Origin: Allacma fusca
Lineage: Eukaryota; Arthropoda; Collembola; Symphypleona; Sminthuridae
Length of the DNA: 64,000 nucleotides
NCBI GenBank assembly: GCA_947179485.1
Contig: OX359250.1
Span: forward strand, 39,710,783-39,774,782
Direction of reading: 5' to 3'
Part shown: positions 10,959 through 63,523 of the stretch, piece after piece
Layout: every line of letters starts with the position of its first letter
Numbering within the stretch: position 1 is the stretch's first letter
The notes under the pieces: model-generated
Seen by the model: the letters and a program-made list of their open reading frames with translations, nothing else
The model's database searches: none
What the model was told of the DNA's origin: nothing
Position numbers and translations under genes: made by a program

Positions 10959-11400
10959 TAAAGGATGTCTTGCCCTTGTTTGTACATTGAAGTCATATCC
11001 ATTGATATTATATTAACAATAAAGAATTTATATGACAGTTTTACTAAAAGTGACGGTCCTTAGGCAGCTCTCAAACTGGAAACTGGGGCAACCGCACAGC
11101 TTACTACGTAAGTTCCTTTTAACCAAGGCAGTTTAAGGCATACTTTTTGTAATACGCATGTGTACCAGTTGTAATAAAATTAGCGATGCAGTCGTAGGGT
11201 TCCCAGACGTCCCGGAATGCCCGGGACAGTCCCGGAATGACAGTCGTTGTCCCGTGTCCCGGAAGGGTGTATTCCGGGACACGTAAATGTCCCGGAAACG
11301 TCGAGCTCAAAAAGTTATGAAAATTATTGAGTTTTTAAGATAAAAATAAAATATTTCGTTCTAGAGGAGCTCGATTCAAACGAGAACATCTACATAAAAC

Positions 11401-12335
11401 CACTGCTGCCCTATTCTATTCCGACTTGAATAGGAAAATAGGAATTTGAATAGAATTGCCGAAATTTATACAGAAATAAATCGAATAGAATTGAATAGCT
11501 CGATTTTTGAAACTCCCAGACTAGAATAGAATAGAATATGCACCTGATGCCAAGATTAGAATTGAATAGTAAAAACAGTGAAATTCTTATTCAAATCTGA
11601 GCATCTGAGAATGTCATAAACAAAAAAAATTAACTAAAGACCTTTGATTGCATCCGTAAAAATCATCGATACGCGATAATTTGAGGCTTCGAGTAGGGTG
11701 GCGTCATTACCGCGAAGTAGGACGAATTTTGATTTTTTTTTTAATTTCATAATTTCTTTCAAAAAATTATAATATAAATTTCATTGAAATCGGTGCAGCG
11801 GTTTTTGAGATATCGTGCGGAAGGACACACGCACGGACGTACAGACAAGGTTTTTTTTTACTAAGGGGCTTGCGCCACCCTGAAAGCTAGAAATATATTT
11901 TGAGGGTAGGCATCACTTTATTAATTCAGGCCTTTTAACTGCCAATTGTTAAGTACAAGTAATTATTTATACGCCCGTTTAATTCTCTTCTGCCTGGAAG
12001 TGACTCGTAAATTTGGTAAATATCAGTTATTTTATTATCATTGTCAATAACAAGTTATACTTTATTCAAGGACCTTTAAATTGGAATTGTGAAAGAAAAT
12101 GTAGTTATATTTATACAGCGCGCTTTATTCGCTAGATTTCAGCGCGCGGTTTTTAATTCCTGATGAATAGAATTTGAATAGGAATAGAATAGGAATTATC
12201 TAATTTTGTTGGAATAGGAATAGACTTGAATAGCCTCGCCAAACCTTTAGCAGAATATAATAGGACTTGAATATACAAGACTTAGTTGTAAACAGAATAG
12301 AATAGAATAGAATTAAAACTTGGCGGGCAGCAGTG
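11401..12335. mobile_element. Non-autonomous hAT-like element with GAATAG word ends, copy 1
   Basis: Tips CACTGCTGCCC / GGGCAGCAGTG with a perfect 8-bp target duplication CATAAAAC on both sides. The 100-200 bp inside each tip is degenerate GAATAG/TTGAAT repeats, in opposite orientation at the two ends. The interior holds a short copy of the hairpin-tipped repeat (11663-11881). It is inserted in the older hAT at 11195-13856. A second, inverted family member lies at 40359-42863. Confidence 0.85.
11663..11881 (+). repeat. Hairpin-tipped GGGTGGCG repeat, short copy
   Basis: Starts with a near-palindromic tip (TCATCGATACGCGATAAT), continues with AGGGTGGCG and ends GCGCCACCCT after ACGGACGTACAGACAAGG. 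The longer copies (39161-39748, 42038-42600, 44555-45108) have extra internal subunits of about 110 bp. The element class is unresolved. Confidence 0.6.
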
Positions 12336-12430
12336 CATAAAACTAATAAAATCATAAAAATGTGATTACAAGCGTAACAAAATCATCAGGTAATAATTAA
12401 AAAGGTCTATGTTTTACAATTCTACAGTAT

Positions 12431-13811
12431 ATGGGAAGAGGTTGTCAATTCAAAAATTGGTTACGTCGAAATGGCAAAGATAACCAGACCCCTGCTAGGA
12501 TTTTAGTGTGTAAAGCGACTTTCTCTGTTAAGTATGAAGAATTTGGGTTTGTTAAATCTCACATGTAAAGTTCCTAAGAACCTAGAGAAAGCAGAAGCTG
12601 AAACTAAAAAAGTTTCGATTTTTTTAACCAAAAAATCTGGAGACGATTAAAAATTTAGCATATTGGCTGTTACAATGCGACCGTAGATTACGGCCGCCAA
12701 AATTATATATTTTCGAAATTCCAGGAAGAAAATCCATCAATTGTTGCTGCTAATTGCAAATATCACATTATACACAGCGCTGTGAAATATGCAAGCAATA
12801 AATTATCAATGGATGTTGAAGGGTTAGTTGTAAAGGTTTTTAGCGAATCTAGCTCGTCTGCGCAGAGACTAGACTCTTTAAAACAGATATGTGAATTCGT
12901 GGATGCGGCTTTCCTTACTTGCGGATTCCTTTCTAATAGGTCAGCTTTGAAGTCATATTTTCTTTTGAAGGAACAAAGTGACCTGTTGTATGTCATAACA
13001 GCAATGAAGTTGCTGCGAAAGTAGAATGCCTAACCGAATGATACCCATACATATATTGTGCACATTATTTTACAATAAATGAATTCGCCCATTTTAACGT
13101 TGGAGTGTAATGATGTGACGGAAGTTTACGCTATAATGAAATCTTTTCTGGAAAGTTCTGTAAATTAGATACTATAAATTTTACGGAAGTAGCGCTAATG
13201 CAATTCTGACAAATTTACCCCGCTACAAAACAAAAGCGCTTTGAACGGGAAGCTTTGGATGTTTTTGAAATCACTGCAGACCCATTTAAGCAGACATTTG
13301 GATTTCGTGATACTAAAGTTTTTTGAAAATGAAACTACTAAATTTTAAATCAGGAATTATTAGTATCCATGACTCATTTACTAAATATTGCCGTTGCACT
13401 CGGTATTAAATTAAACGAGGACCAACTGTACAAGGAATTTTGCTTACTATATCAAACTTGAGTTTTTTATTGTGATCGGTGATCGTGAGAACTGTCGGTG
13501 CAAAGTGGGCTGAGTTTTTTAAGAAAGATCAATGTCCTGAACTATTCAAGCTTGTATCGTTCGTGCTTTTAATTCCTGTTAGCAACGATTTTGCAGAAAG
13601 TTATTTCAGCCTAATGAAGAAAGTTTGGACAGCCGAGAGAAACTTAATGTCAACAAAACTTGTGAAGGCAGAGCTTCAAGACAGGTTAAATGTGCCCTTT
13701 TCATGTTGTGAATTGGTTTTTTTGAACAAACCGGAAAACAAGAAAATGTTATTAGATGCAAAAAGGCTGAAAAATACAATTAGGAATCGTGTATACTTAA
13801 ACAAATTTTAA
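12431..13811 (+). pseudogene. hAT transposase remains
   Basis: A chain of fragments in hAT order. At 12431-12565 a BED-finger-like N-terminus runs from MGRGCQFKNWLRR to KATFSVKYEEF and SHM, then a stop. At about 12725-13024 there is a middle segment with SSSAQRLDSLKQICEFVD. At 13479-13811 is the diagnostic hAT C-terminal dimerisation region: LIPVSNDFAESYFSLMKK followed by VWTAERNLMSTKLVKAELQ. Stops, frameshifts and deletions lie between the pieces, including loss of most of the catalytic core, so it cannot make an active enzyme. It sits inside the element at 11195-13856, whose right tip follows about 45 bp after the stop. Confidence 0.8.
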
Positions 13812-13867
13812 AATTATTTTGTCCCGGAATGACGTTTCAGAAAAGTGGGAACCCTAATGCAGTGTCA

Positions 13868-16854: not shown

Positions 16855-16861
16855 ATGGACA

Positions 16862-17172
16862 GGTCCAAATTAGATTCTAGGTTAGAATCAAGTTTAGACT
16901 CAAGTTTAGACTCAAGTTTAGATCCAAGTTTAGACTCAAGTTTAGATCCAAGTTTAGACTCAAGTTTAGATCCAAGTTTAGACTCATGTTTAGACTCAAG
17001 TTTAGATCCAAGTTTAGACTCAAGTTTAGACTCATGTTTAGACTCAAGTTTAGACTCAAGTTTAGACTCAAGTTTAGATTAAAGTTTAGATTAAAGTTTA
17101 GACTCAAGTTTAGACTCACGTTTAGACTCACGTTTAGACTCAAGTTTAGACTCAAGTTTAGACTCAAGTTTA
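16862..17172. repeat. 12-bp minisatellite (CAAGTTTAGACT)
   Basis: About 25 tandem copies of CAAGTTTAGACT, with variants GATCCAAG, GACTCATG and GATTAAAG. Because 12 is a multiple of three and the unit has no stop, long spurious open frames run through it on both strands; none is a gene. Unlike the word islands it is strictly periodic and has no inverted partner. Confidence 0.9.
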
Positions 17173-17339
17173 GTTTGCGTATTTGTGTAGTTGAAAAACT
17201 GCAGCATTGGCGTGGCAAGCCAGTGGCAAGAAATGGTAACAGCCGATTTTTATTGGTCAGTGGGTTTATTTGGATAGCACTAATTATGACCATTTTATAC
17301 CAACCTACCAGAGCTGTTATGTTATTTTAAATACATGTT

Positions 17340-17785: not shown

Positions 17786-18958
17786 TAGGTTATGTCGATT
17801 TGAAAATGCCCGGCATTTTGGACAAATTGTCCGCCCAAAATGCCGGGGCAATTTGGGCATTTTCATTTCAGGGCGAGGGCGGCATATTAGCTCATGTTGG
17901 GCAAAGGCATTTTGGGCATTTTCATCGAGGACAAATTGGGCATTTCGGGCAGAATCGGGTAATATAATAGCACAATCTATATAATTTGACAATGGATTTG
18001 AAAATTTCTTTGTAATTTTGGAGAAAAAGCGTTCAAAATTACCTTAAAAATTGTATTAGATTTATGTCATTATGTTGACGAAGTTAATTCAACCGGTGAC
18101 GAAATACGTTTTGATACCATAGGTCATATTGAACATTGCAATTTTTGAAACACCTGTACACGATACGGCTATAAATTAAATTATTCTAGGAACTATTTTT
18201 CCAAACTGCAGACGATGTAAAATGAACTCCCATCATCATGGAATATTCACATACCCCTATACATGTATGTCTACTGCGATCAGAAATGTCTTTTCGGCTA
18301 AAATTTGAACCCATACGGGAATTATTTTATACACCATAAAACTACAAACAACAATATTTGGGGGACCTGTACGGAGGATATTTATTTGTTTTTACTCGAG
18401 CCATTTTTGGCTGATCGTTGCAAACTGCAGACAATAGTGATGTAGAATAAACTGAGTATAAAATTCAGCTTCATCACCTATTAAAATTTTGACTGATCCC
18501 TTACCATCAGATTTTTACTTTAGTAGTACTTAATAGTATTTCTGCCCGCCAGTCAGTGACGCATGTGTAAATTTATTTCATATTATTGTTTACATAGAAA
18601 TTTATTTTCATAGGAGTGGTAAATGATATCACCTTACGTCAATGAAATTAAATTGATTTGGCTGTTTTTGCCATTATAATATATTACGAACAAGCGAATA
18701 TCCAGATATTGACATTTGTAACGCTTCCTTGGCTGCACTTTGATGCATTTGGATTTATATTCTGAATATATGCTAGTAATCCAATTTTGGTGCCGTGAAA
18801 ATGCCCAAAATGCCCAACTTGCCCTGCCCAAAATGCCCAAAATCAGGGCATTTTCAAAAGCTACCCACTTACCCGATTTTGAGCATGTGAGCAGGCATTA
18901 TAGGCATTTTCAGCTGGGCGGGCAAATACTGCAGGGCATTTTCAATCGACATACCCTA
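17786..18958. mobile_element. Non-autonomous hAT-like element with AAAATGCCC word ends
   Basis: Tips TAGGTTATGTCGATTTG and its near-complement ending CGACATACCCTA, flanked by GCTGGAAC and GCTGCAAC (8-bp duplication, one mismatch). Both ends hold AAAATGCCC/GGGCATTTT islands of about 150 bp. The interior of about 850 bp is AT-rich and non-coding. The word is the same as in 30674-31799, but the outer tip is different. Confidence 0.75.
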
Positions 18959-29449: not shown

Positions 29450-30614
29450 TAGTGCCCCGCATGGGTACAGAAATGTCGTACCTGGACCTGGACCTGTACC
29501 TATACTTGAATCATGAGTACATGGATTTTTTGAACCCATACCCGCACCTGTACCTGAATACATGAGTTCAATTTTCCTGAACCTGTACCTGTACTCAAAC
29601 TAAATCAGGGGTACCTGTACCTGAAAAGTACCTGTACCCGGGTATATTTTAAAAGTACCTGAACCTACCCGGGTATTTTTGATTGTACTAATTTAAAGGA
29701 TTACCAAATATATTACACGAAATAAAAAATTAAAACATCTGCGACCAAGACATTTTGACTTAATAAATTTATTTATCATATTAGAATTATTTTTATTTTT
29801 TATTCTTCGAAAGCATGACCAAGTACTGGAATTATCAGAAGTCATAAATGATTACATAAAGGTTGAAAAGGTAACAGATAGCAAAATCTACTATATGAAT
29901 AAGTTCAATCCAACAATACAAATGCAGTGTAATATTTCCTAAGCGTTCAATAATACCGAGAAATTGAACGATTAAGAATTTGTTTTGCAACCTTTGCAAC
30001 CTTTGTTTTGCAACACTTCTTTTCCATTGCTTTCGCAATGGAAAACAATTATTAGATTCAAACTTCTCAGGTTTTAACTTCAGCCAAGCTTTGAGACAAA
30101 AACATTTCCTACCGTATCTCCACTCTAATATAAGCACGTTTATGCGTCAGAAGATCTGGGCCTTAGGAGAAGGCTCGCTCTATCTGTAAACCAGTTCCAG
30201 GAACTGCTAAAAATTCTCTGGTCATTCCAGCTAATGCTGGGTAACTAGCCACGTGTTCCTATATGGTGGAATTAGTTTTCATGACTGAGCTTTTACGTAT
30301 AAATTTTAATGTAACATGTTTCAAGGTAAAAAATTCGGGTGAGTTTTTAAAGCTCAAAAACACCTTTACAGGCGTTACTTGGAAATTATTATTGACAGAG
30401 AAGTACCTGAAAGTTCAGGTATTTATCCAGTGCGTACCCGTACCTGATGGGTTTATACCCAAAAGATAGGTTTTTGTACCTGTACCCATACCTGAACCTG
30501 AATTTTCAGGTATCAAACGACTGAACCTGAACCTGTACCCAAATTGGATGGGTACAAAAAGCATGTACCTGTACCCAAATACCCGGGTAAAACCTGTACC
30601 CATGAGGGGCACTA
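29450..30614. mobile_element. Non-autonomous hAT-like element with TACCTG word ends
   Basis: Tips TAGTGCCCCGCATGGGTACA and TGTACCCATGAGGGGCACTA, flanked by a perfect 8-bp duplication CATCCATC. Islands of TACCTG/TACCCG and their complements span about 240 bp at the left end and 200 bp at the right. The interior of about 700 bp is non-coding. Truncated relatives occur at 40950 (within another element) and 63745. Confidence 0.85.
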
Positions 30615-30673: not shown

Positions 30674-31799
30674 CAGGGTTGCACAAATGAAAATGCCCTA
30701 GATTTTATGCCTGCCCTCCTGAAAATGCCCTGAAAATGCCCAAAACGCCGAAAATGCCCTGAAAATGCCTTACTCTGAAAATGCCCGGCATTTTGGGCAT
30801 TTTCGGCAGGCATTTTGGGCATTTTTAAAGAAACTTATACACTATGACCATTATTGCTCCTTTAGCGAATATAAGGGACTTTTTCATAGCATAATCAAAC
30901 CCATCCAGTTTTAGAAAATGTTATAGTTGATTTAAAAAAAGAATTTAATTCGTCTAATTCGTTACTTCTGGCGAGTGGTTATTTCAATAATCCTTAAAAA
31001 AAATTTAAGCCCCAACGGAGTTGTAAACATTCAACGCTGTACATTATAAAAAACTTCGGGATTTGTTCTTACAGTGCCAGCATAAATTCCGTATTTTGAT
31101 AATGGCTTGTAAAGTATACAAAATTTTACATTTTCATTAGATGCATAAGATGCGAAAGTTATCATATATGTCAAAACTTGGAGCTTCCATAGCAAATTTT
31201 GTGTCGACTTTGAAAACTGCATTTAATCAGCCGTAGTAAACCAGTATAATAATTCCAGGAGTCCAAAATGTAACAATAAATACATTTATGTAGATGATGA
31301 CGAGTTTTGAAGCTCACAAAAAAGACATTTTTAATCTTTTAACAACTATTTTATCTTTTTGTGTTGCATCTTTGCCCGAATATGTTTGTTCTTGAAGTCT
31401 AAATAATTACAGACACGGTGTTCAAGCGAATTTTTACAACAAAATAAGCAAAATAGAATAATAATAATTATTTTTCCATAAATATGTCTACATCAACTTA
31501 CTCCAGGTTTCATCCGTTTATTTCTATAATTTTATCATGTAATCCAGTTGAATATTAAAATTATTTCCAACATACTGTTTTGTGACTTATTTTGCAAAAT
31601 TACCAGATAGCTAAAGCCATATATTTAAAAAATTGGATCGAAAATGCCGAAAATGCCTGCTCTAGGCTCAATATGCCCAAAATGCCCAAAGTGCCATAGA
31701 TGCCCAAAATGCCATGAAATGAAAATGCCCAAAATGCCAGGGCATTTTTGGCAGGCATAATGCCGAAAATGCCATGGCATTTTCAATTGTGCAACCCTG
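30674..31799. mobile_element. hAT-like element with AAAATGCCC word ends and CAGGGTTGCACAA tips
   Basis: Inverted tips CAGGGTTGCACAA and TTGTGCAACCCTG, of the CAGGG type usual for animal hAT elements. Inside each tip is an AAAATGCCC/GGGCATTTT island of about 150 bp. The flanking 8-mers (ACTACAAA and GTAACATA) do not match, so the two ends may come from different copies or the duplication has been lost. The interior is AT-rich and non-coding. Confidence 0.65.
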
Positions 31800-32291: not shown

Positions 32292-33955
32292 TAGTGGTCG
32301 GACCAATTCAATTCAGAATTGGAAATTTTCGATTCGATTCGATTCAATTCGATTCAGTAGTATTTCGATTCGATTTGCAGCCTAACTACTAATTCAAAGA
32401 AGGCTGTCGTCAAAATCAAAATTCGCGCTGTCCCATTACATGAGACACTCGGGCGCCAATGAGCTGTGCTGAAGAGCGACAGTAGTACACACATTCCATT
32501 ACCATCCGCATTTACGCTTTTGCTTATATGCAGTGCAGTCAGTTCAGCCATAGAGCAACCTATATGTAATGCAATGGGAGTGAGAGAGAACGCTTCAGCT
32601 ACACACAGTTCCGCGTGCTCTCATCGCCTCATCTCATGATCTCACGCTCTCCCATTGCATTCTACAGCATGCTTTATATATGCAACGTGTGTATTTGAGA
32701 GGACGCGGAGCGTCGCATCGTCAACCGTCACACTGTCACAGCTCATTAGCTGTAGCGCGCTCTCCCATATTCACACGTTGCATATATAGCATGCTGTGTA
32801 ATGCAGGATCCACCAGTTCCTACTTTTTTCAGTCCAAGTCAAAATCAGTCTTAAATTTCTTATCAGTCAGTCAGCACATAAGTCTGTTTGCCGTTTCCCA
32901 TGAGTCCCAGTCAGTCACAGTCATTATCAGAGTCACTGGAATACTGGCAGAGGGCATCGTAAAAGTTTCAAAAGTGCCTATTTTTTGTGATTTTATTGTG
33001 CTGTGCAGAAGAGCGACAAGAGTACACATTCTGTTACCATCCGCCTTTGCAGATGGCTATTACATTTCTTTTGTTTACTTGGACAGGCTTAAGTTATAGT
33101 CACGCTAACGATATGGTAACCAAGTGTTACTACAACTTAATTCTGTCCTATGTCCAAGACAAAAGAAGGTAATTCCAATTTTTTCGAATTATTTTTAAAA
33201 AAATTTAGTATTAAAAAAAGATTTTATTTTTGGTCTTCCTCCTAAATGCACTATTGCTGGTTTGCCGTTGGGAATACCAAGTATCACAAGAGTTAACTAA
33301 CGGGCTTATTTGCGGTATGTATGTACCATTGCCGAAGCCGTTTTTTTCTCGGCACTCTTTTCTTCAGCACTCTTTTTTCCCCGAACACCTTGGAAGGGAA
33401 ATATTAAAGTTGTTATTAACGCCGAAGACAGCCAAGGGAAATTGCTAGGTGAAGGAAATTACACTAACATACGTAACTAAATGTCTACCCCCAAAAAATT
33501 TGTAATTTGTTAAAAGTTACCAACAACATGAATAACTTCATCAATCGTGTTACCATCCGCATTTGCGGATGGCTTTACTGCTAGTTGAACTGAATCGAAT
33601 CATATCTTGTGAATTGCAATTCAAACAATTCAGCAAAACCGCTTCGGCTGCGCACGGGTACTTTTTTTCCGTATAGTCCAAATATTACGTATAGCACAAC
33701 GTTTGCTATTTTAGCGTAGCTTTTACTATACCCTTTATAATATGTATACGACACTCCATAGTAACATAAGGAAAATTTTGTACTTTCCCACTTGAATCGT
33801 TCGATTTACGATTCAATTCGATTCACTGAGTGAATTGAATCGAATTGAATTGCTTTGGGGCAAATTGAATCGAAAATCGGTTTTTCGATTCAATTCAGGC
33901 TTCAAATTGAATCAAATTGAAAAATTCGAATCAAATTGAATCGATCCGACCACTA
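32292..33955. mobile_element. hAT-like element with GATTCGAATT/AATTGAATC word ends
   Basis: Tips TAGTGGTCGGACC (left) and GATCCGACCACTA (right). Flanks GTTCCAGC and TTCCAAGC look like an 8-bp duplication with an indel. The left island (GATTCGATTCAATTC) is short and the right is about 180 bp. The interior includes a long imperfect inverted repeat (32640-32800, GCATGCTTTATATATGCAACG) and several GTTACCATCCGCATTTGCGG copies. No coding capacity recognised. Confidence 0.7.
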
Positions 33956-37185: not shown

Positions 37186-38421
37186 CAGTGCTGCGGACAA
37201 GTTCAAGTAATACTTGAGTTTTCAAGTCAAGTTCAAGTTCGGGTCAAGTTCAAGTAGGCCAATTTGTTTACTTGAATCTTTCGGGTCAAGTTCAAGTACG
37301 TACTCGTCTTGACCATGACATTCTAAGACAAGTCAGGTTCAAGTACAAGTAAGAGAAATTTACTTGAGATTTCATGGTCAAGTTCAAGTAATTTTAGATT
37401 GTGTATGCTTTGTATGCGTAGATGCCATAAAGGACGGAAGCAATTTCAAAAGCACAATCCACTTTCATGTGGTGTCCAGGGTATATTGTTTTTCACATGC
37501 CATAAATCAAAGGACAAAAATCAAAATCAGAGTCCGTTTTATAAAGGTCTTGTTTACCAGACGTTGCTCATTGTTAGTTGTTGCAGCGGCCTCTCCATGA
37601 AATGAAAGAATTATCTTGATAATTCATATTGTTGCTTAGAATTATTATTTTCAACTTGTGTAAATAAATTCCAATGTAAATTGAGCTTGGATGCCTCTTT
37701 ACAAAAAGTGTTTAATAAATAAGTAAATACTAGTTTATTAAATTTTAAATTAAGAGTACTGGTAATGCTCAAATAGGTATATGTAATTATATATACATAT
37801 ATAAACATTAAATAAAACTTGGCACCATGTAAAACTCGTCAGATATACAGTGAAGTCCATTATAAGGGCTCAGCTTATAAGGAATGTATTGATATCAGGG
37901 ATGCATTTGTTTGACCCCAACTTTCATTTACACAATGCTTTAGACGTTTTGTATAAGGGAAATTCCTTTATAAATTATATATTCCCTTATATCGAACTTT
38001 TACTGTATTCAGTAGACGCACAAAGTTGTCCTCGAATGGTTTTAAATAAAAAGTAGCAGTAAAATTGTTTTCTGAATGCGTTTTGGTTTTCAGTCTGAAG
38101 GAAATTTAATAATTTGCTGCAGCAAGTTCGACAAGTTACTGTGGTCATGTTTAATTTTTTGTGTTACTTCACTTGAATTATCAAGTTCAAGTCGCGTTCA
38201 AGTCATGGTCAAGTCAAGTTCAAGTCAAGTTTGGAACTTTAATTACTTGATCAAGTTCGGGTCTTACAAAAGTTACTTGATTACTTGAACTTGACAAGTC
38301 AAGTAATTACACGAACGCGAGTTATCAAGTTCAGGTTGTGTCTTGAAAATTACTTGAAGTTTCGTGGTCAAGTCAAGTTCATGGTCAAGTTTTGAAATTA
38401 CTTGACCCGATCGCAGCACTG
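37186..38421. mobile_element. Non-autonomous hAT-like element with AAGTTC word ends
   Basis: Tips CAGTGCTGCGGACAAG and GATCGCAGCACTG with a perfect 8-bp duplication ATTGCAAT. The left island (about 210 bp) is CAAGTTCAAGT-type; the right island (about 250 bp) is a mixture of the word and its complement. The interior of about 750 bp is AT-rich and non-coding. Confidence 0.88.
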
Positions 38422-39748: not shown

Positions 39749-40534
39749 AAAAACAGCACCTGGTTGCTCGAGTGGTAGCTCGAACTTATAATATTTCTGC
39801 TCTCCTCTGCGCTGCACTTCATACATGGAGGCTACTCGTGAGTGACGAGTGCACTCAACACACTCCTACTCACACTCACAGGAGAGTAGCAAGGTAAAGA
39901 GTAGGAGGAGTGAAGGCGCCAAAAACGTCGTGAGTTGGAGTGGTATAAATCGAAGCATAGAAAAAGAGTAGGAGTAGGAGTAGCATGCTTTGCTACTCGA
40001 TATTTCTCGTACCAATGTATTAATCGCGTAAAGCTAGCACTGCCACGTTAAAAGATTGGCGGTTATTGCCAAATATTTCATAATTTCATACAAACAATCG
40101 TGTGGAATGCCGACTTATGTATGTACAAGTCATGCATTGGAAAACAAAATATGTCACAGATAAGAAAGAAATCTTGAGCATGCTTCCAGGAGCTGTTGCA
40201 ATTATTGTAAACTTCGTCGGTCTTTGCATTTGCCATTTATTTTGACTCCGAAATTAGATTGAACGAGTTTGTGCTTAATATTCGTTTTTTTAATGATAAG
40301 AAACTTTTTGGCTTAATATTTGCAAGAATTTCGATGAAAACTTTGAGTAACTCACGAGCACTGCTGCCCGCTAAGTTTTAATTCTATTCTATTCTATTCA
40401 GTTTACAACTAAGTCTTGTATATTCAAGTCCTATTATATTCTGCTAAAGGTTTGGCGAGGCTATTCAAGTCTATTCCTATTCCAACAAAATTAGAAAATT
40501 CGTATTCTATTCCTATTCAAATTCTATTCATCAG

Positions 40535-41747
40535 CATACATGGGCACCCTCACGAGGGATTGAGGGATGCCTCACCCTCTCCCTCGTCCTCGCCCTCACA
40601 AAATGCGAGGGTGAGGGTGAGTACACGTTGATTTCAGGAGCCCTCATGAACATGAGGGAGAGGGCCAATGGAGAGGAAGTGAACGAAAGAGAGGGAGGCA
40701 GAGTGCACATATAATCTCTCATGGTTTTTTCTTACCGGAACCTTTATCAAATTAGGAGAGAAAATCTTACATACATTTTTCTGTGTCAAGGCAATCCCAT
40801 AGCGCCAGCTTCATTCACAGTGATCCAACAAGTAACCTCGCAGATTTTCCAAAAACTTCATTGGACTGTGTAAGCTTTTAGGTTTCACTTTTGCACGTCA
40901 AGGGCGTGAACCAAAGCTGGATTTTTTGCTGATTTCGAATCAGTGCCCCACATGGGTACAAAAATGTTTTACCTGAGTTTGGGAACATAAATGTTTATCT
41001 GTACCTGAATACACAGTTTCACTTTTCCTGAACCTGTACCTGTTCCCAAACTAAATCGGGAGTACCTATACCTGAAAAGTACCTGCATCCAAAATGTACT
41101 CAAAAAGGTTTTTGTGCCCAGGTATATATTAAGAGTACCTGGGACTACCCGGGTGTATTCAAACGATTGGGCTAAATTAAAGAATGAAAAATGAAACTAT
41201 GACCTATCAGTACTTAAAGTAATTTTATCCAAGGTCACTGGGGTCAGAAACAAGACGCAAATTCAAAATTATCCACTATTTCTAAATTAACCATTATTTA
41301 CAACCTCGCCACTTAACAAAATACTTTGCTATCGTTTGTTGTGGCTTGGATGTGCTTTTCAGAGTTTCAGAGTGCTACTTAATACACTCCAGGATTGTGA
41401 ACAGGACCAAACAAAGTTGCAGCAACTCTGCTTCCAAAGCGAAATTTAACAATGAGAAGGGTACATTTTGAAGCTGTCATATTTTTACCAAGTATCCGTA
41501 AACATTTGTTTTGAAAGCACAGATGTTGTAGAAAATTGTATATGGGTTTATTTACGTGTAATATAAAATAACGAGGGCACTCACGACGGCGAGGGAGAGG
41601 GGTAAATTTTAAAATTAGCACCTCACGAGGGTGAGGGCGAGGACAATCCGAAACGTGTCGCTTGATTGATGACGAGGGAGAGTGCTTGCAGACTGTAATC
41701 TATCCCTCGCACAAAGAGGCAGAGGGAGACAAAAAGGCCCATCTATG
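40535..41747. mobile_element. hAT-like element with GAGGGT word ends
   Basis: Tips CATACATGGGCACCCTC and GGCCCATCTATG with a perfect 8-bp duplication TTCATCAG. Islands of CCCTCGC/GCGAGGGTGAG at both ends. The interior contains a truncated TACCTG-family end (about 40948-41155, starting CAGTGCCCCACATGGGTACA). It is the innermost level of a four-deep nest. Confidence 0.85.
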
Positions 41748-42037
41748 TTCATCAGTAAATAAAAACCGCGCGCTGTAAACTGGTGGAAAAAGCGCGCTGT
41801 GTAAATATAACTACGTTTTCTCTCATTATTCCAATTTCCAGTTCCTGGAATTATAACTTGCTATTGACAATGATAATCAAATAACTGATATTTACCAAAT
41901 TTACTCTTTAGCAAGTCACCTCCAGGCAGAAGAGAATTAAACGGGTGTATAAATAATTACTTGTACTCAATAATTGGCGTTAACAAGCCTGAATTTATAA
42001 AATAATTTTTACCCTCAAAATGTATTTGTTAGTTTTT

Positions 42038-42600
42038 ATGGTGGCACCAGCGCGTTAGTAAAATAGCCTTGTCCGTACGTCCGTGTGTCCTTCCGCACGA
42101 TATCTCAAAACCCGCTGTACCGATTTCAATGAAATTTGTTATGGGCATTATTTTTGCCAACCGTAAGGCTGAGTTCATATTTAGTTGAAATCTGATAGAT
42201 TGGTTTTCAGAAAATAATTGTCGAAATTTTGGGCTTTCAGTCAAATGACAGTTATCATCAAAACTACTGAATATATTTCAGTGTTTTTTTTAATATTGCT
42301 TATGTAAATCGTAATGGTTATTGTATTTGTGGTTGAAATCGACCCAGTAGTTTTTTTTTAATTTGAAATTTCGAACTTTAAATCAAATGACAGTTATCAC
42401 TAAGACTAACAAATCGATTTCAATCAATTTTTTTTGTGAATATTGCTTATGTAAATAGTAATGATTGCGGTTGAAATCAGCCTGATAGTTTTTTCAAAAA
42501 AAAATCGCAAATTTCGAAAAAAACTTAAAATTCACCTTGCTTTTACGGCGGTAGCTGACCCAACCCTACGCGAAGCCGCAAATTATCGCGTAGCGATAAT
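42038..42600 (-). repeat. Hairpin-tipped GGGTGGCG repeat inside the GAATAG element
   Basis: Inverted relative to 11663-11881 and about 345 bp longer because of additional internal subunits. It ends in the ATTATCGCGTAGCGATAAT near-palindrome. Its position inside the GAATAG element is the same as in copy 1, so it predates the spread of that family. Confidence 0.65.
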
Positions 42601-42871
42601 TTTTACACACGCCCGCCAAGGGCTTTAGTTAATATTATTTTTGTTTATCACATTCTCAGTGGCTCAGATCTGAATACGAATTTTGCTGTTCTTACTGTTC
42701 AATTCTAATCTTAGCATCAGGTGCATATTCTATTATATTCTAGTCTGGGGGTTTCAAAAATCAAGCTATTCAATTCTATTCTATTTATTTCTGTATAAAT
42801 ATCGGCAATTCTATTCAAATTCCTATTTTCCTATTCAAGTCGGAATAGAATAGGGCAGCAGTGCTCACGAG

Positions 42872-43802
42872 CATACCTGGGCGTTTGCAATGCACTCGCA
42901 CTCACCTCGCACTCAATTACAACGGTGAACCTTTGAACTCCCCTCGCGCTCGCACTCATGAATTCTGAACCACTGCACTCAAACTCCTACCTCAAAGCAC
43001 TGTTCCAAAATTATAGCACTCGCACTCAAACCTTGAGTGCACTCACAGCCCTCTTGCACCACTGAGTGAGTGATATAATTTTATGGCTGGATTGAATAAA
43101 CTCTGATTTCCTGATTAATTCGGAAGTTGCAGCACTGGAAATTAGGTGTTTTTCCGTATCTAATTTTCTATATTCCCGCCACAAGTCTCAATCCACCTGT
43201 TTTCACATTTTCACTGTGGTTTTGGAGATTTTACCCATTGGGGTACATCCCGTAGGTCAGCGCTGAAAATTTTTAAAAACCTTCAAAAAGTGATGTGATT
43301 AATGAAAAAAAGTTAATTTACATATTTTGCCACACTAACTAACTTGCGTACCTTAATTTTTGGATTAACAATTAGTGACTTCACAAGGTTCTTTCGCTTG
43401 TTTTTTTCTCCCGTTTTCACTCAATTTTGGATATTGTGGAAGCCCTTAATGTAGAAAGAAGTGTACACAACTCACTTGGTTAACTTACGTTAATGCATTG
43501 GCGGTTGTTAACTTATGCATGGTAGCAAAACAGAATGTACACAAAGTCATCACGCTTTGGCTGACATGCCTTTGTACCGAATTTTGAAAAAATTCCGCGT
43601 TAGCTTAGCGGAGTGCAGAGTGCAACATTCTGCACTCAGCCTCTGCCTCTTCAACATAAACTTTATTGAAAGAACCTCGGCCTCGTTAAGTTGAGTGCAT
43701 GACGGTTACATTGGCACTCGCACTCACGAGAAATTTTGAGTGCATTGAGTGCGAGGTGAGTGCGAGGCATGCCCTCATGCCTCCTGAGTGCGCCCAGGTA
43801 TG
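42872..43802. mobile_element. hAT-like element with GAGTGCGA word ends
   Basis: Tips CATACCTGGGCG and CGCCCAGGTATG with CTCACGAG on both sides. Islands CACTCGCACTC and GAGTGCGAGGTGAG of about 200 bp at each end. The left flanking CTCACGAG is also the right duplication of the GAATAG element, so two elements sit side by side at one target. The interior is non-coding. Confidence 0.87.
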
Positions 43803-44554
43803 CTCACGAGTGGTGAGTAGGATTGGTGAGATTTGAAGTTAGCGCTGAGAGTAGGAGTAGGAGTTTTACATTCTCAGACAGACTACGAGTGGGCAAGAGT
43901 AGGAGTGGTGGATTTTTTCTCTATGGAAGTGCGAGTGTGAGTGCGAGTGGGAAAAAAACCTACATCTATGCTGCACTTTACCAAGCAAGCAAGTTTATCA
44001 GTCCAGTGCGGCTTACTGTACTCTATGGCAACCCATCCCATCTGCTCTCACCTCTGACAGCTCATGCATGTGTACTTGACTATTTCTAGCCTTAAGTACT
44101 AATACAAGGTCAGTAATACAATACTCAGGTACCCCTCAGTGTTCCATTATGGTACAATCTAAATATTCCTAAATAGAAGCTATAAATTATTAAGCAAACG
44201 TAAATTACAAGTAAACAGAAAGCAATACAAAAATAATCAAAGCACTTTATGGATGGACTTTGATTAAATTTGTCTGCTAAGATGATTGTCATTCCTTGGG
44301 TCTATGCCACATTTCATGGAATATTTTGACTGTATTATAAGACAACTCTGCGGTTTAGCTGAGCCCTTGAATTAGTACTTTATTAATGCTAGAAATAGTC
44401 AAGGATACACATGCACGAGCTGTGAGAGATGGGATGGGTTGCCATAGAGTACAGTAAGCAGCACTGTAATGATAAACTTGCTTGCTTGGTAAAGTGCAGA
44501 GAGCAGAAATATTATAAGTTCGAGTTGCCACTCGAGCAACCAGTTGCTGTTTTT

Positions 44555-45696: not shown

Positions 45697-46779
45697 CAGG
45701 CGCGTAGCCAAGGGGGGCAAAGGGGGCAATTGCCCCCCCCATTAGAAATAAAATACTCTAAAATCACTCAAAAAGTTAAAAATAAATCAGTCCATACCGA
45801 GACATGCAAACCTTTTTAGTGATTTGACAGTACAATTTTTTTTATTTGTAAAAAAAAATCACTTCGAAACTCAGCATATGCAGCATTCTATGTAAATATC
45901 TGTGTATAAACAGCTTAACTCTAGAACCACCCATGAAGTTTGCATGTTTCGTGTGAATGATTTATTACCCATGGCTCCTCCCGTCATTAATTGACACATC
46001 CATACGCGCGAAAATCGTATCGCAATGTTGTCCATTGCGAGAGCAAAGGATTTCTAGATCAATAAATTTCTATCGAAATGGAAAAGCATTTCGATACGAT
46101 TTTTGCGAGTATGGATGGGTCAACTTTTGACGGGAAGAAGCCGTGGGTAATAAACCATTCAATAAAGAGACGTTTTCGGTGATTCTAGAGTATATTTTTA
46201 TTGTGTTCATCCTTGCTTAGCTGGTGATTTGAATGCATTGCGAAATCCCGATTTCACTTTGACCTTTGCCTCGTCGATTTGACTTCAACCTTCAACGGCA
46301 ACAAAAGTATGGTAACAGCGGCTTTAAATATTTTCATATTAAAAGATTTTAGCTTCTGTAACTTACACGCATCGCTTCGAGGGAATTTTTAACCTGGATA
46401 GAATTATTAAATTAGTGAATTGTATTTAATTTTTCATTATGAAAAGGTCAAGCACGCCTGATATCCGCAGTTTCTTTTCGAAGCAAAGATGTGTGCCAGA
46501 GGAACAGTAGGTTAAGCACCAGCTGAAACGATAGAAGCGAACCCAGGTCTCGAAATTCTCCGAAATCGGATCAAGCCCAATTAAAAATCTGGTCCAAAAT
46601 TATTCAAATTTGATGGAATCGTAAAACGTGGAGAATTTTAAAATCTGAAATTCAGTTTGCAAAATTTGATGAGTTTTACATTCGTGAATTGGATTTCCCA
46701 TAGAATGTGTCAGTTTACATATGTACGTTCCAATTAATGTTGCCCCCCCCCCCTTGGCCAATTCCTGGCTACGCGCCTG
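45697..46779. mobile_element. hAT deletion derivative with CAGGCGCGTAGCC tips
   Basis: Tips CAGGCGCGTAGCCAAGG and GGCTACGCGCCTG with a perfect 8-bp duplication GTCCTATT. The subterminal sequence is G-runs (GGGGGGCAAAGGGGGCAA), not a six-base word. It keeps the start of a hAT transposase at 46439-46510; the rest of the gene is deleted. Confidence 0.88.
46439..46510 (+). pseudogene. N-terminal stub of a hAT transposase
   Basis: 23 codons from ATG to TAG: MKRSSTPDIRSFFSKQRCVP. The MKR...DIRSFF pattern is the usual start of the hAT transposases related to zinc-finger MYM-type proteins. It is truncated by internal deletion of the element and then a stop. Confidence 0.65.
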
Positions 46780-47955: not shown

Positions 47956-47956
47956 A

Positions 47957-50590: not shown

Positions 50591-50602
50591 ACGTGTTTAG
50601 AA

Positions 50603-51425
50603 TATAGCTCCTTATTGAGTGATTACCTTGCGGAACCGTACTCGAACTCGTACTCGAAATCGAAGCATCGAGTATGGACTCCAATCCAAGGTACTCGTAC
50701 TCGCCACATATACGAGTACTCAGGAAAATACTTGAAATAAGCGACCGAGTTCCAGTTCAGAACCCGAACTTGTTTCATACTCGCGAGTACGGAACTGTAA
50801 ATACCGAAATCCCGTACTCGTACTCGTGCCGTGACTCGAGTCTTCATACTCGAGTATTTAATAATAACAAGACCACAATTGAACAGTGATTTTTTTTAGA
50901 TTCATTTAATTTCTCACAAATAATTCCCCCAAAATTTTAAATTGAACCCGCAGTTGGTAAAGTGTCTGTAAATTTTCAATCAATTCAACTACGCCTGTCG
51001 AAGAGTTTGTGTTAATATGTTCAGCCATTAGAATTAACTAATTGTTTTAACTTCAATAGTAATGTACTAAATGGAGAGAGATTATACTTTGAAACCTTAG
51101 AGAGTCGTGACTGGTGGATACAACGATTTTTTGTGACAATTTCATATTAGCGCCTTCGTCTCTTTACTGGAAATTCAAAAGTTTGCAACACTTGTGTGTA
51201 CGCGTACTCGTATATTGAGCATGTGGTACTCGAACTCGATAACCCTTATGAGTATTTTTATTGGACTCGTACTCGTTTGATACTCGTACTCGTAAGTATG
51301 TGAAAAATCGTTACCCGTACTCGAAACCCATTTCAAGTATCGAGTATTCACAAAAATTTGACCGTACTCGACTCGAACTCGTACTCGATACTCGCCGGTA
51401 TACTCGAACTCGATAAGGAGCTATA
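50603..51425. mobile_element. Non-autonomous hAT-like element with ACTCGT word ends
   Basis: Tips TATAGCTCCTTAT and ATAAGGAGCTATA, with a perfect 8-bp duplication GTTTAGAA. Left island of about 210 bp (GTACTCGAACTCGTACTCG) and right island of about 220 bp carry the word in both orientations. The interior of about 390 bp is AT-rich and non-coding. Confidence 0.88.
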
Positions 51426-54080: not shown

Positions 54081-54146
54081 CTACCCTCTCTCTCGTACAC
54101 GAGCTTTGTAGGTTCGCGAGTAAAAATTACCATACAGGCTAAATGG

Positions 54147-54867: not shown

Positions 54868-54908
54868 AAGATAGCCCACTTCGCAGGGCAATATAATCTA
54901 GTATAAGA
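54868..54908. repeat. Helitron-body-like segment
   Basis: GATAGCCCACTTCGCAGGGC and ATAATCTAGTATAAGA here resemble 8777-8812 and 9968-9996 of the two Helitron-like copies (AATAGCCCGCTTCGCTAGGC, GTAATCTCATATAAGA). The match supports a degraded Helitron in this part of the MULE. Confidence 0.5.
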
Positions 54909-55310
54909 GGACATTCCAGTAAAACCACTCAGTTAAAATAGTTAACATTTCATGACATCCAAAATTCATGGTTAAGCGCTCTTGAAAAACTTCCTACCAA
55001 GGCCCTACATATACCCAACGGTTGATCCGTAGATAGTGGCTAGCTCAACCATTAGAAACCTCCTTAAAAGTAACATTGTTAGTAATTTATTGAGTTATTC
55101 CCTTCAATTAATATATTTTGATGGTCGGTATAATCAAATTTTACTAACTTTGTTAACGCATCTCTAGAAAATGCCACATACAACTGGTGAAGGCAAATAA
55201 GTTAAAAGTTGATGAAATGTTTGTCCCTGACTCTTGTTAATTGTCATTACAAATGTGATTCGATTCGTATCAGTTTCACAGTTGGTTTTTTATATAACAT
55301 TTTTGAGCCA

Positions 55311-55470
55311 GTGATGGGTAACCGAAAATTTGGGTTTACGTTAACTAAATAAAGGTTAATGACAGTCTAAATTCGGTTTTAGTTTTTGTTATTCGTTTTT
55401 TAAGAATTCGGTTATGATTATTAACGGTTAGCAGTTGGATTCAATAGCGTTAATCGGTTAATACCGGTTA
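55311..55470. repeat. GGTTAAC/TTAACCG word island (solo end)
   Basis: The tip CAGTGATGGGTAACCG is followed by about 150 bp of GGTTA/TTAATCGG words. The tip has the CAGTG form of other hAT-like elements here. No second tip was found. Confidence 0.45.
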
Positions 55471-56047
55471 ATATTAGCAACAATGAATACAGTTGAAGAA
55501 AAGATTTTTCTGAATTTTTTAACTGTAATCTAAAGGTTCATTAAACATGGTTAATACTTAAAGTTATTAGCACTAGTATTTCGTTTATTAATGCCTGAAA
55601 ATTCGTCGTAACGTTTGTTTCAAGCAAACAATAATATGACTTCCAGGTAGTTACAGAATAAATAAATTGTAGGTAACCAGTAAATATGGTCTGCACTCAT
55701 TTTCGATCAAGCGTAAAATGGCAACTTGTTCCAAAATCAAATTGTAGTTATTGTTGTTAATAATTTTTAACTGAAAATTTCATGTCAAATTAATCACACG
55801 AAATTTTAAAAAAGGGAAATATAACATGAAAATATGGAACAGTTTCTATTTATTTTCGATTCGATGTTTGTGCATCATTATCAAAAATACATATACATGA
55901 TTTTATACCTATATAAACAGGAAGAAATAAGGAACTTAGCCTCGATGGAAAATTTTAGATTAAAATTGAAACCGAATTGTTTGAAATTTTAAGTTTGCGA
56001 TTGAATAGTTTTTAATATTTAAAAATTCACATTTTAGGTGGAACACG

Positions 56048-58444: not shown

Positions 58445-58851
58445 GAATGCTGAAAAACAACAAAGATTCTTTGTAAAAAACAGAACAAGATTCCAACAAA
58501 GTCCATACCTGATCGTTCAACAATAATGAGATCATTACTACCTTTGCGCATACATACTGTATCTGATTAAGTTCCTGAAATTGTAAGGGAGGATCAGGAA
58601 TGCGAAATATTTTCAAGTAACGACATTCCTGTATCGGAAGAAGTAGAAGTAAGAACTTCTGTAGATTTTCTTCGTTACTTACGTGATATCACTGAAGATG
58701 TTGAATTGAAATTAATGTATCCTTGAAAGAAACACTTCAACCTCTAGAATCAGATCACCCCGTAGATTATCATGAATCAGTTTGGAAATTAGCATTTCAA
58801 ATAACTATGTTTTGTCTTTTAGATGCCTGTGTACTCATGGAAACCAACTGA

Positions 58852-59203
58852 ACCTCCAGTAATCCCCCACCATTTGTTCCAGCTACACAGCCGCCACTAC
58901 CTCAAAACCTTCGTTTCGTAAGTATATTTTGATTTAACATAACTGCCGAGTTGAAGCCAGTGAATGCTTCACTTGCCTGCCCTTGTTTTGAATGAATTTA
59001 TGTATTTGTAGACCCGTGCGGACGTGGTTTTTGAGCAAGCCATTGACTGGTGGTCATCAAACGCTCCTGCGACTTATGTGGATCCCAGGGAAAACTGCCG
59101 CACCAGAGTAAAGCGGGAGGTTGGTGAAACAAGTGCTAGTTCAGAGGAATCGACCTATGGTGATCTTGTCGATGTTAATTCACAATATGAAGAAATCATA
59201 TGA
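58852..59203 (+). CDS. Candidate second MULE gene or transposase tail, two exons
   Basis: A Pro-rich piece (NPPPFVPATQPPLPQNLRF) ends at donor TTC|GTAAGT (58917). Acceptor TATTTGTAG precedes 59012, and the frame continues TRADVVFEQAIDWWSSNAPA, then a Ser/Glu-rich tail ending QYEEII and TGA. The phase matches across the junction. The 5' boundary is unclear because TGA lies at 58849. Unknown family. It could be an accessory protein of the element, the original C-terminus of the transposase, or a captured host exon. Confidence 0.5.
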
Positions 59204-60197
59204 GCGCGCGAGTCATATGATACTTTGATAAAGATCCTCATAGGTATCTAAATCTGTATAGCTTGAAATTAGAATATGTGTATTTTGTTCATCTTTGTAT
59301 GTGCATTAAATTTTATTTAAACATTTTCAACAACAGGTATCTCTGCATGTTTGTGTATATGAATGAGTACATTCAGAAAAATGCTTGATTTCTTAAGGAA
59401 AAGCATAAAATTCTTAAAGGTGTAATTATTACAATTTAGGAAGTAATTATATATTTTCCACGGAAAACATTTTTTGGCACATTGCCGCTGCCACAATGTT
59501 AATTTTTCTCCTTTTCAGATCATAATAATCTACCACAATAGGAACTAAATTTTGCTCTGATTTTGAGAGGCAATCCCATATTAAAATGTACAATATTTTC
59601 ATGTTTGCTGTCAATACGGATATTCAGTAGATTTATTAGTACCTTTTTCAAAACATTATGGGTAGTATTTAGTTCTTTCCCAAAATGCATGTGCATGTTT
59701 ATTCAGTAAAGTCTCGAAATATATTTTTTCTATAATTTGATATTAAAATAAATCAGTAGAGTCTTGATTTTTGTGTTTCTCCTGCTTTGTTGTAGTAATG
59801 AATTATTTCAAAAATTTCTTATTAAACAGCAAAGTCATCAAAACGCTGAGTATGAGAAAACTTTATGTTGACCCCTGAACCTCGACCTTAACATTCAGCA
59901 CTCACGACAGCTATTTGCATGCTATAATAATGTGAAGTCCTACAAGCCAAACTTGAATGCATAATTAATGACGTGATTACTTCAATAGGGAATGTGCACT
60001 ATACACATTCTATTTTTGCGTATCCCATTACGGTGGAATATAGAAATCATACAGTGCAGTATTTTATAAGGGCACTCCTAACAGCGACAAAATTATACTT
60101 ATAGTGGCATGTTCTTATTTGTTCAAGGAAAAAATTAATATTTACATAAACGGGATATTCCAGTATTTTTGTTTGTATAGAAAAGTGCTCTTTCAAA

Positions 60198-60587
60198 AGG
60201 GTATTTCTTAGGGTGAGCTGGTACCTTGGCGAAGAGCGGAGCCTTTACCTTAAGTGCATCATTCTCTTCTCATCATGAGCAATAATTACTACATCGGAAG
60301 CATTGATATACATAGATTGCATTGATATACATAGATACTCTACTCGGACTAGAGTCAGAGTGGTTGAGTACTCTATAGTATGTAAGCATAGAGTTTTGGA
60401 GGGACGTACTACTATACGTAAGTAGCTTCGGCACATATGTACATTAATAATATACTCCGCGCTCTGAATATGCTTCAGGCTTCAGCAGTGCAGTGTGTGT
60501 AATGCAATTCTATGAACGGCCGAGATGCAGAAAAGCGCAAGTCTGCTGCTACTTTCGAGCAACTTATTCCTGTTTTTACGTGCTAGT
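60198..60587 (-). repeat. Right terminal inverted repeat of the MULE
   Basis: Complement of the left repeat over about 390 bp with about two substitutions seen by eye (near 60350 and 60520). Such near identity means recent transposition. Confidence 0.88.
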
Positions 60588-60635
60588 GTGATTTATTTAC
60601 ACATTATTTTGGGCCCATAAGGTATGCAGTCGGTG

Positions 60636-61212: not shown

Positions 61213-61357
61213 TCCACACGGAATTTTGCCTATTCACTTACGATATTTTGCATAATAAATCATCTCTACATATTTATGTTTATAAGGTGTAATTCTCGCC
61301 ATATCCCCACTCGGGATAGGAATGAATCTTTGTGGTACTACTTTAGGTACCTAGCCC

Positions 61358-61779
61358 CAGGGGTTGGATTTTTGTGGCACAACTTTTTCGAACCAAGGTT
61401 GGGATTTTCAAATGTTGCAATCATTGTTTTCATCAATAGGGATTTTTAAAATTGCTGACGACTTTTGAAATTAATTGCAGAAAAATATTCAACAGGGATT
61501 CTCACCGACAATTTTCAAACGCCATTGTTCAAGGATTTTGGGATTTGTTGTTTTTTTCAGCAGGGAATTTTAATGTGACGACTTAATAATTTTGTGTCGG
61601 CTATTATTATTTTGATTTGTTTACATTTCCTTCTTTAAGTATTTTATAAATTGTCGAGTCCCACCAAGCAAGTAATTTTTTGTTAACAGGGATTTTCAGT
61701 TTGTCAGCAGGGATTTATAGTTTGTCAGCAGAAAAATCAAAAATTATCTTCCAGGGAGATTTACATAATCCGACCCTTG
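61358..61779. mobile_element. Small hAT-like element with CCCTGCTG/CAGCAGGGATTTT words
   Basis: Tips CAGGGGTTGGATT and AATCCGACCCTTG, flanked by CCTAGCCC and CCTGGCCC (one mismatch). GGGATTTT, GTCAGCAGGGA and AACAGGGATTTTC words fill most of the element. Same family as 19045-19445. Confidence 0.7.
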
Positions 61780-61988
61780 CCTGGCCCAGTGTCCCAGCGC
61801 GGACAAAGGTTCCGTCCAGGTCACCATGGGAAATCGCGCCGAAATTTTAGAATAAACTTTCGGGAGTAAAGTCGCTCGAACTGACTTTTTCCAATGTTAA
61901 CTCACAAACAAGTTTTTGAGTCAGTAAATTTATTTATTATCAGCTTGACAACACATTTTGTCATTCATTCGTCAGAAGTGGATGCAAT

Positions 61989-63523
61989 TAGGCCTCCGCA
62001 CATGTACATTTTCCTTAAATATGAACATGAACATGAACATGAATTTTCATGTTTTACATGAGTTATTTTCAAAATCACCCGAATTAAACCATGTCACTCG
62101 AAACGAATACTTCACTTTAATTTCATGTGAAAAAAGTAAACTTGAACATGACATTTACATGAACATGAAAATTTCAAGTACATGAACTGGACATGAACAT
62201 GTACATGAACATGATGACATGAAATAAAATTCGCATTACTCGTCTATTGATACATACTGCTACTTATTGGAGCTGATTCTCTCATATTTGATCCTTCTTT
62301 TTCCGTAAAAGTAGTAGTAAAAGTGGTAAAAGTCTACAACTTAAAATGACTGGTATTTTTTACATTGTACGAGCCATACATGGAGGCTACTCGCGAGTGA
62401 CGAGTGCACTCAACACACTCCTACTCACACTCACAGGAGAGTAGCAAGGTAAAGAGTAGGAGTGAAGACGCCAAAAAAGTCGTGAGTTGGAGTGGTATAA
62501 ATCGTAGCATAGAAAAAGAGTAGGAGCAGGAGTAGCATGCTTTGCTACTCGCTATTTCTCGTACCATTGTATTAACCGCATAAAGCTAGCACTGCCACGG
62601 TTAAAAGATTGGCGGTTATTGCTAAATATTTCATAATTTCATACAAACAATCGTATGGAATACCGACTTATGTATGTACAAGCCATGTATTGGAAGACAA
62701 AATGTCACAGATTAGAAAGAAATCTTGAACATGCTTTCAGGTTCCAGGCGCTGTTGCATTTATTGCAAGCTTCGTCGGTCGTGATTTGAAATTGAGTTTG
62801 ACTCACTTTTTTAATGATAAGGAAAACTCGTCTTAATATTTGCAAATATTTCGATGAAAACATTGAGTAACTCACGAGTGGTGAGTAGGAGTGGTGAGAT
62901 TTGAAGTTAGTGCTGAGAGTAGGAGTAGGAGTTTTACATTCTCAGACAGACTATGAGTGGGCACGAGTAGGAGTGGTGGATTTTTTTTATGGAAGTGCGA
63001 GTGTGAGTGCGAATGGGGAAAAAACCTACATCTATGGTATGAGCACTGCACTATGGTTGTGGATACATCTAGAGCGCGCGAATATTTGAATCTTACCATC
63101 ACTTTCACTATCAACTCTCTCAAATTAGTAGAGAGGATAACACGTAGTCTTCTACCTCATATCAGCAATAATCGTCACCTGATTCCGGTTTCCCGCTCAA
63201 TACGCTCAAGGAATGCAGCGACATGACAGCGATTTAGCGATTACTTCCATACCTTATGGTGACATGAAAATATTCGTGTTTTTGAGCTTGAGTTCATGTC
63301 TTCTGATTTTGTTAACATGAAAGTGTACATGAAATCAACTTCATGTTTTTAAGGTAACCTGCACATGACATAAGACATGACTTGAAAAATCATGTTTGAT
63401 GTCAAGTATGTTTTAAATACATATGAATGGTCTGTGATTTGATAATCCGATACATGAACATGAGTTGAGACATGAGTCACACATGAAACATTCATGTCTG
63501 AGTTGTACATGAGCGGAGGCCTA
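61989..63523. mobile_element. hAT-like element with CATGAA word ends
   Basis: Tips TAGGCCTCCGCACATG and CATGAGCGGAGGCCTA with a perfect 8-bp duplication GATGCAAT. Islands of ACATGAACATGAA and complements span about 230 bp at the left and 260 bp at the right. The interior hosts the younger element at 62375-63036. Confidence 0.88.
62375..63036. mobile_element. hAT-like element with GAGTAG word ends, copy 2 (uninterrupted)
   Basis: Tips CATACATGGAGG and CCTACATCTATG, flanked by GTACGAGC and GTATGAGC (one mismatch). 662 bp, non-coding, with about 450 bp of unique interior between GAGTAG islands. This is the empty-site reference for the nest at 39820-43970. It is inserted in the CATGAA element. 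Confidence 0.85.

Follow-up and report, generated by a model that had tools for sequence, protein, structure and literature searches.

What is the purpose of the short repeated words that fill the ends of many transposable elements in the collembolan Allacma fusca? The question arises from a 64,000-nucleotide stretch of its genome (GenBank assembly GCA_947179485.1, contig OX359250.1, positions 39,710,783 to 39,774,782 of the forward strand), hereafter the window, where hAT-like elements carry, inside each short inverted tip, an array of one degenerate word that differs from family to family. We consider it probable that most of these are non-autonomous hAT elements whose tips are cut and whose arrays, as putative sites for the family's own transposase, act as a family address, with sites spaced by half turns of the helix and rewritten in place.

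Elements, duplications, and transposases

Sixteen elements were delimited in the window by their tips; the genome searched comprised 393 Mb in 91 contigs, and the window lies on a contig of 48 Mb. The features are as follows (strand given where assigned).

11195..13856, plus strand: A; word TCCCGG(AAT); tips TAGGGTTCCCA / TGGGAACCCTA; flanks TGCAGTCG / ATGCAGTG, indel-shifted; hosts B1
13476..13808, plus strand: hAT C-terminal dimerization domain remnant within A (PF05699, E 2.1e-5, above the curated cut-off)
11401..12335: B1; word GAATAG; tips CACTGCTGCCC; duplication CATAAAAC
17786..18958: D3; word AAAATGCC(C); flanks GCTGGAAC / GCTGCAAC
29450..30614: C1; word GTACCTG; 21-bp tips; duplication CATCCATC
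30674..31799: D1; word AAAATGCC(C); tips CAGGGTTGCACAA; flanks unmatched
32292..33955: I; word GAATCGAATTGAATC; tips TAGTGGTCGGA; flanks GTTCCAGC / TTCCAAGC, indel-shifted
37186..38421: E; word CAAGT (CAAGTTCAAGTC); tips CAGTGCTGCG; duplication ATTGCAAT
39820..43970: H1; word GAGTAGGAGTAG; duplication CTGCACTT; contains B2 and F
40359..42863: B2, of the family of B1; duplication CTCACGAG; contains G
40535..41747: G; word CCCTCGC/GAGGG; tips CATACATGG / CCATCTATG; duplication TTCATCAG
42872..43802: F; word GCACTC; tips CATACCTGGGCG; duplication CTCACGAG, common to B2
45697..46779: J; runs of C or G, without a word; tips CAGGCGCGTAGCCA; duplication GTCCTATT
50603..51425: M; word TACTCG; tips TATAGCTCCTTAT; duplication GTTTAGAA
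52493..53056: P; word GACTGA; tips CAGGAT / ATCCTG; duplication ATTCAGAG; within the left arm of a MULE-type element
61989..63523: N; word ACATGA; 20-bp tips; duplication GATGCAAT; hosts H2
62375..63036: H2, of the family of H1; flanks GTACGAGC / GTATGAGC; bears the empty site for B2 plus F

Perfect 8-bp duplications flank 11 of the 16 elements (B1, B2, F, G, H1, E, C1, J, M, P, and N), and the flanks of D3 and H2 agree at 7 of 8 positions; those of A and I appear to be shifted by an indel, and those of D1 have no match. An earlier note on this DNA had listed ten 8-bp words, all of which were recovered as exact flanks (CTCACGAG twice). Its descriptions of the tips themselves as inverted and of one element with G-runs in place of a word (J) are both correct. 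When the sequence was searched blindly for 8-bp flanks, mismatched at one position at most, around 7-bp inverted tips, 40 pairs were returned, 10 of them perfectly flanked, versus 12 to 26 pairs with 0 to 2 perfect ones in ten Markov-2 shuffles. Two of the 10 perfect-flank pairs fall within D1; G, H1, and P were passed over because the search required exact tips.

Evidence for insertion comes from empty sites. Joined flanks align without gaps to uninterrupted relatives for G (B2 versus B1, 91%), for P (one MULE arm versus the other, 99%), for B2 plus F (H1 versus H2, 95%), and for J (versus locus L092, 90%), and the duplications therefore derive from insertion; a comparison of H1 with its outer repeat gave a less clear empty site (83%, 10 gaps). 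B2 and F, which belong to different hAT families, stand side by side at 40351-43810, and because CTCACGAG occurs at all three borders, the pair reads as two insertions into one target.

Family E was followed across the genome by searching with its left end, which gave 777 first-look candidates, of which 40 were scored and 30 loci, including the window copy, were fetched. Both tips lie inside the fetched sequence in 26 of the 30, and the duplications of these two-tipped loci are perfect in 21 and differ by one mismatch in 5, such that copies without 8-bp duplications, which the earlier note had held would count against its reading, were not found among these E loci. The E duplications prefer T at positions 2 and 3 and A at positions 6 and 7; among the 21 perfect ones, position 2 is T in 14 and position 7 is A in 17, which fits nTnnnnAn, the target preference of Ac-type hAT elements.

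Membership in the hAT superfamily is supported by the 8-bp duplications, the dimerization domain in A, and three complete transposase-bearing elements. A genome search with PF05699 yielded 150 scored matches from 860 candidates, and 70 loci (30 from the search and 40 fetched afterwards) were examined; in 49 of these, the 1.6 kb downstream of the hAT C-terminus holds a word island scoring above all 70 shuffles. Homology between copies stops at, or a few bases from, a hAT-like tip in 10 of 13 copy groups, and no clear transposase-linked boundary was found in the other 3 (L041/L042, L085/L091, and L090/L104, the last pair being alike in their ends only). L064 (3,339 bp), L062 (3,766 bp, with weaker islands), and L105+L033 (4,900 bp) are complete elements with perfect duplications, tips, words at both ends, and a hAT domain inside; their words are CGGAT, GAGGG/GAGCG, and TAGAGG, respectively. 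The two tips agree in all 10 letters in L062 and in L064, and in 9 of 10 in L105+L033. The terminal inverted repeats of hAT elements often start with CA or TA, and short repeats of the hAT type are present in both the window elements and the complete ones.

The dimerization domain was found in A, L063, and L064, as well as in L033 and L044 through the genome search. The RNase-H-like hAT core (PF14372) matched L063 (E 0.026) and L064 (E 0.0011) below cut-off, and zf-BED matched the N-terminal exons of the same two loci (E 0.015 and 0.09), also below cut-off. Most window families are non-autonomous and were assigned by tips and duplications where a transposase was not linked. An M-type end was also found downstream of the hAT domain in L075. 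A transposase fragment from this genome matches two Allacma fusca proteins at 99% across some 45% of its length, consistent with that springtail or a very close one.

Two sets of candidates were rejected. L045/L061, considered as a transposase copy of family I, is instead an I-type element hosting a nested hAT with the word TAGGAAGG, because copy L066 has the same transposase and ends at its own tip. The islands at L040 and L099 are ends of unrelated insertions that lie beside a transposase.

Direction and spacing of the words

In the window, 27 merged stretches exceed the maximum word-island score of 20 Markov-3 shuffles. With the exception of J, clusters of short repeats like those of Ac and Hermes lie within about 200 to 250 bp of both tips. 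The earlier note held that word islands found equally often without the tips and away from any element would count against its reading; this applies in part, some of the 27 being minisatellites (at 16870-17173 and 51523-51897) or falling beyond the elements delimited here.

To score word orientation, strand asymmetry was compared between the ends in a single index that ignores the outermost 20 bp; J, which has no word, was set aside. Fifteen families (A, B, C, E, G, H, M, N, P, and the elements in L002, L024, L025, L033, L049, and L064) have an index of at least 0.59, that is, their words run in the same direction through the element; the index of A was built on five k-mers. Inverted orientation was seen in two, the element in L097 (−0.61) and F (−0.82), while L062 is weakly direct (0.30) and D and I gave no clear direction. 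At 15 to 2 (p 0.0023), most families contradict the claim in the earlier note that the words are inverted between ends. The direct arrangement is also seen in the 26 copies of E, with 13 to 15 CAAGT per end and ACTTG 3 to 4 times on the left and 6 to 7 times on the right.

Spacing between words is also ordered. Same-strand gaps between successive words cluster near 5-6, 10-12, 16, 26, 31, 36, 41, and 47 bp, and they recur with a period of about 5.3 bp, close to the 5.25 bp of half a helical turn; this rhythm is weaker outside the window. For 207 pooled gaps of 13 to 70 bp from 58 of 60 islands, with periods scanned from 3.5 to 13, the best period was 5.25 bp and was matched by none of 5000 jittered sets. 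The period was first noticed in these pooled islands and was then retested on 44 less redundant islands, from which homologous ones had been removed; the best period was 5.35 (0 of 3000). A bootstrap over families placed it at 5.20 to 5.46, and a period of about 5.3 bp persists when each gap value is counted once per island. AT-only 5-mers from the same islands showed no periodicity (p 0.144).

Several other features were noted in the window. A regular minisatellite unlinked to any tip occupies 16870-17173 (12-bp unit TTAGACTCAAGT, about 25 copies), and another, with a 51-bp unit, about 7 copies, and 97% matches, occupies 51523-51897 and has one open reading frame per strand. Two copies that carry CCCTCCG words lie head to tail at 47332-48629, with GTGTTAGGATATA / TATATCCGAACAC as their ends; no matching 8-bp flanks were found for them by eye. 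At 45640-46930, J splits a region resembling the AGCCTA-word island downstream of the L092 hAT domain. What may be a left end, CAGTGATGGGTAACCG, lies at 55309 with GGTTAA words after it, and it resembles the AACCG island with tip CATCGCTG downstream of the hAT domain at L089. Words of the type TATCCGATCC, as in L064 but without its tip, occur at 45334-45475 and 49742. Finally, the host of P is a complete MULE-type element (52367-60587) with a perfect 9-bp duplication, GTGATTTAT, arms that are 99% alike, a MULE transposase domain (E 6e-14), and C2H2-like fingers.

Word turnover and shared site positions

Words were compared with the transposase C-termini at 45 of the 70 loci (those dropped include L040, L099, L050, L053, L057, L080, L095, and L096). 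Of the 21 pairs with C-termini at least 90% identical, 17 have a common word, and the mean cosine is 0.77, whereas at 50 to 60% identity (35 pairs) it is 0.05, which indicates that words turn over faster than the C-terminus. Among the 4 of 21 pairs with unlike islands, L083/L102, L045/L066, and L065/L066 are explained by neighboring, hosting, or interrupted elements, and L045/L065 follows from these.

The right ends of H, G, L048, and L062 show how a word may change. Sites in these ends coincide, in various pairs, at 26, 32, 68, 74, 115, and 121 bp from the tip, and the words at these sites are GAGTAG/GAGTGG in H, GAGGG in G, GAGTTC in L048, and GAGGG/GAGCG in L062. Filler identity is 0.29 to 0.40 in the position-sharing ends versus 0.24 to 0.26 when shifted. 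In a position test for which word lists were picked after viewing the alignments, with the same lists used in the shift control, the observed coincidence was unreached by 200 shifts in 5 of 7 pairs. The L062 element has a second locus, L044, whose C-terminal region is about 60% identical to that of L048. Alignments of L064 with L088 (CGGATAGGAT versus CGGTTCGGTT) and of B1 with L104 (GAATAG versus GACTAG, with identical tip GGGCAGCAGTG) look similar in kind. In this one clade the distance of the sites from the tip is preserved although their word differs, so the words appear to have been altered in place and not swapped.

Three related transposase N-terminal exons, with 35 to 38% identity to the first, have in common a CxxC and NFK-H frame and differ around it, and one of the three has a subthreshold zf-BED match. 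Residues in the CxxC/NFK-H region may read the word, and these three short exons hint that the binding domain changes together with it. The earlier note had proposed that word and binding domain are exchanged jointly as families diverge, which is half supported: word likeness falls with C-terminal identity, but in one clade the sites seem to stay in place.

Conservation adds evidence for family E alone. In the right array of 26 E copies, a region that was not part of the genome-search query, the 110 word columns hold 1 shared and 11 single variants, whereas the 168 filler columns hold 22 and 46. Shared variants in the left array did not differ significantly between words and filler.

Alternative readings and related systems

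We propose that the short inverted tip at each end would be the site of cutting, and that the 100 to 250 bp inside it would be an array of short sites for the transposase of that family, with an N-terminal BED-type zinc finger as its probable reader. Many subunits could bind such an array at once, giving a family its own address among its relatives in the genome. Because the sites tend to run in one direction through the element, its two ends would differ when read inward, perhaps as a mark of end identity; site spacing would track half turns of the helix, and a shift in transposase specificity would be followed by the rewriting of its sites in place. Support for the earlier note's view of the words as transposase-binding arrays is indirect: it comes from the spacing, from site positions common to related families, and, in E, from conservation. 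A stronger formulation, which we advance only tentatively, is that hAT ends form a one-directional, half-turn-phased lattice fixed to the tip, in which the word is rewritten in concert and direction distinguishes the ends, so that mutually blind families arise.

A number of results weigh against the proposal. Twenty-one of the 70 transposase loci lack a clear island, and some islands beside transposases are parts of neighboring insertions that contaminate island counts, for which reason we relied on comparisons between copies. The pooled gaps give no signal at the full turn of 10.5 bp (p 0.21), one split half favors a period of 12.5 (p 0.017), and islands outside the window taken alone are weaker (best period 4.75, p 0.053; at 5.3, p 0.012). 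The position test fails for two of its seven pairs, G-H1 (13 of 200 shifts) and F-H1 (no coincidence), and in an automatic scan of 1692 end pairs, related pairs rank high but so do unrelated ones; the case for word change therefore rests on the targeted pairs. Under a broader definition of words, eight non-E pairs show no significant difference between words and filler (36/901 versus 50/925, p 0.18). Also, zf-BED was recognized only below cut-off and in 2 of 5 N-terminal exons, those of L062, L105, and L061 giving no match, and a BED structure model from three sequences (mean pLDDT 65) had no usable fold match.

The islands could alternatively be microsatellite-like slippage arrays in transposon ends that have since decayed, with a transposase that reads the tips alone. 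Such an origin, which we think unlikely, would suit the frequent tandem words at 5 to 6 bp, the repeated gap run in the E right island (26, 43, 5 twice), and the coherent direction within islands, which fits local duplication; in-phase filler, moreover, is slightly more word-like (15.1% versus 12.1% with at least 3 of 5 letters), a result that also counts against our own proposal. However, simulating arrays with the short unit lengths of each family gave the observed phasing in 0 of 500 cases, the words are the less variable part of the E arrays, and four related families have common site positions though their filler is near background identity.

That the words serve host proteins (e.g., silencers or transcription factors), replication, or repair seems improbable to us. 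No measurement here speaks against a host factor, but the word is family specific, being common to most pairs of near-identical C-termini, and a host factor would more naturally favor one word across families. More improbable still is that the elements belong to another superfamily. The P and Zisupton superfamilies also make 8-bp duplications, which alone are not decisive, and families without a linked transposase were filed by tips and duplications; against this stand the hAT dimerization domain in A and in the complete elements, as well as Hermes transposases as the best, though weak, PDB sequence match (E 0.02 to 0.05) of one core fragment out of the two compared.

Arrays of transposase sites are, as a kind, already known. 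Ac/Ds of maize makes 8-bp duplications and repeats AAACGG in its terminal 200 bp; Ac transposase binds this word cooperatively, and movement needs several copies (PMC3260210). The Allacma families resemble it in both their duplications and their repeated subterminal word; Ac/Ds, however, has one word in one family, in contrast to a few dozen words in one genome, mostly in one direction and at near-half-turn spacing. Hermes of the house fly, to which the weak match of a core fragment was noted above, has 17 and 14 subterminal AAG(T/C) sites, with a BED finger on AAGT and cooperative binding (PMC10368747). Its left-end STR2 to STR7 are antisense and its right-end STR1 to STR5 sense (PMC10368747), an arrangement that can be read as direct on one strand, as in most Allacma families. 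Hermes is a single family, and the available passages of that paper do not describe sites spaced by half turns, words that change while their positions stay fixed, or a radiation of words (PMC10368747). Further work found diverse 8-mer preferences for hAT-19 and CGGBP-type BED and Hermes DNA-binding domains, with the motifs of four hAT proteins fitting the subterminal regions of their own elements (PMC8097297); these proteins span many species, and arrays, orientation, spacing, and in-place word change are outside what its available passages cover.

By analogy with Ac and Hermes, the Allacma ends are most simply explained as arrays of sites for their own transposase. The breadth of words, the direct orientation, the phasing, and the change of word at fixed positions look new. 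Searches of the open-access literature turned up no description of hAT arrays that are phased by half turns or rewritten, none of Allacma hATs, and none of a comparable radiation of words in one genome or of direct orientation as a rule.

To our knowledge, how a transposase changes its DNA specificity while dozens of sites must follow is an open question. A single genome holding many related families with different words, some at matching positions, allows direct tests of how words change and of which residues are involved, and its natural pairs of transposase and word would constitute a data set on DNA reading by zinc fingers. The direct orientation, in turn, suggests a general rule by which the two ends of a transposon may be distinguished.

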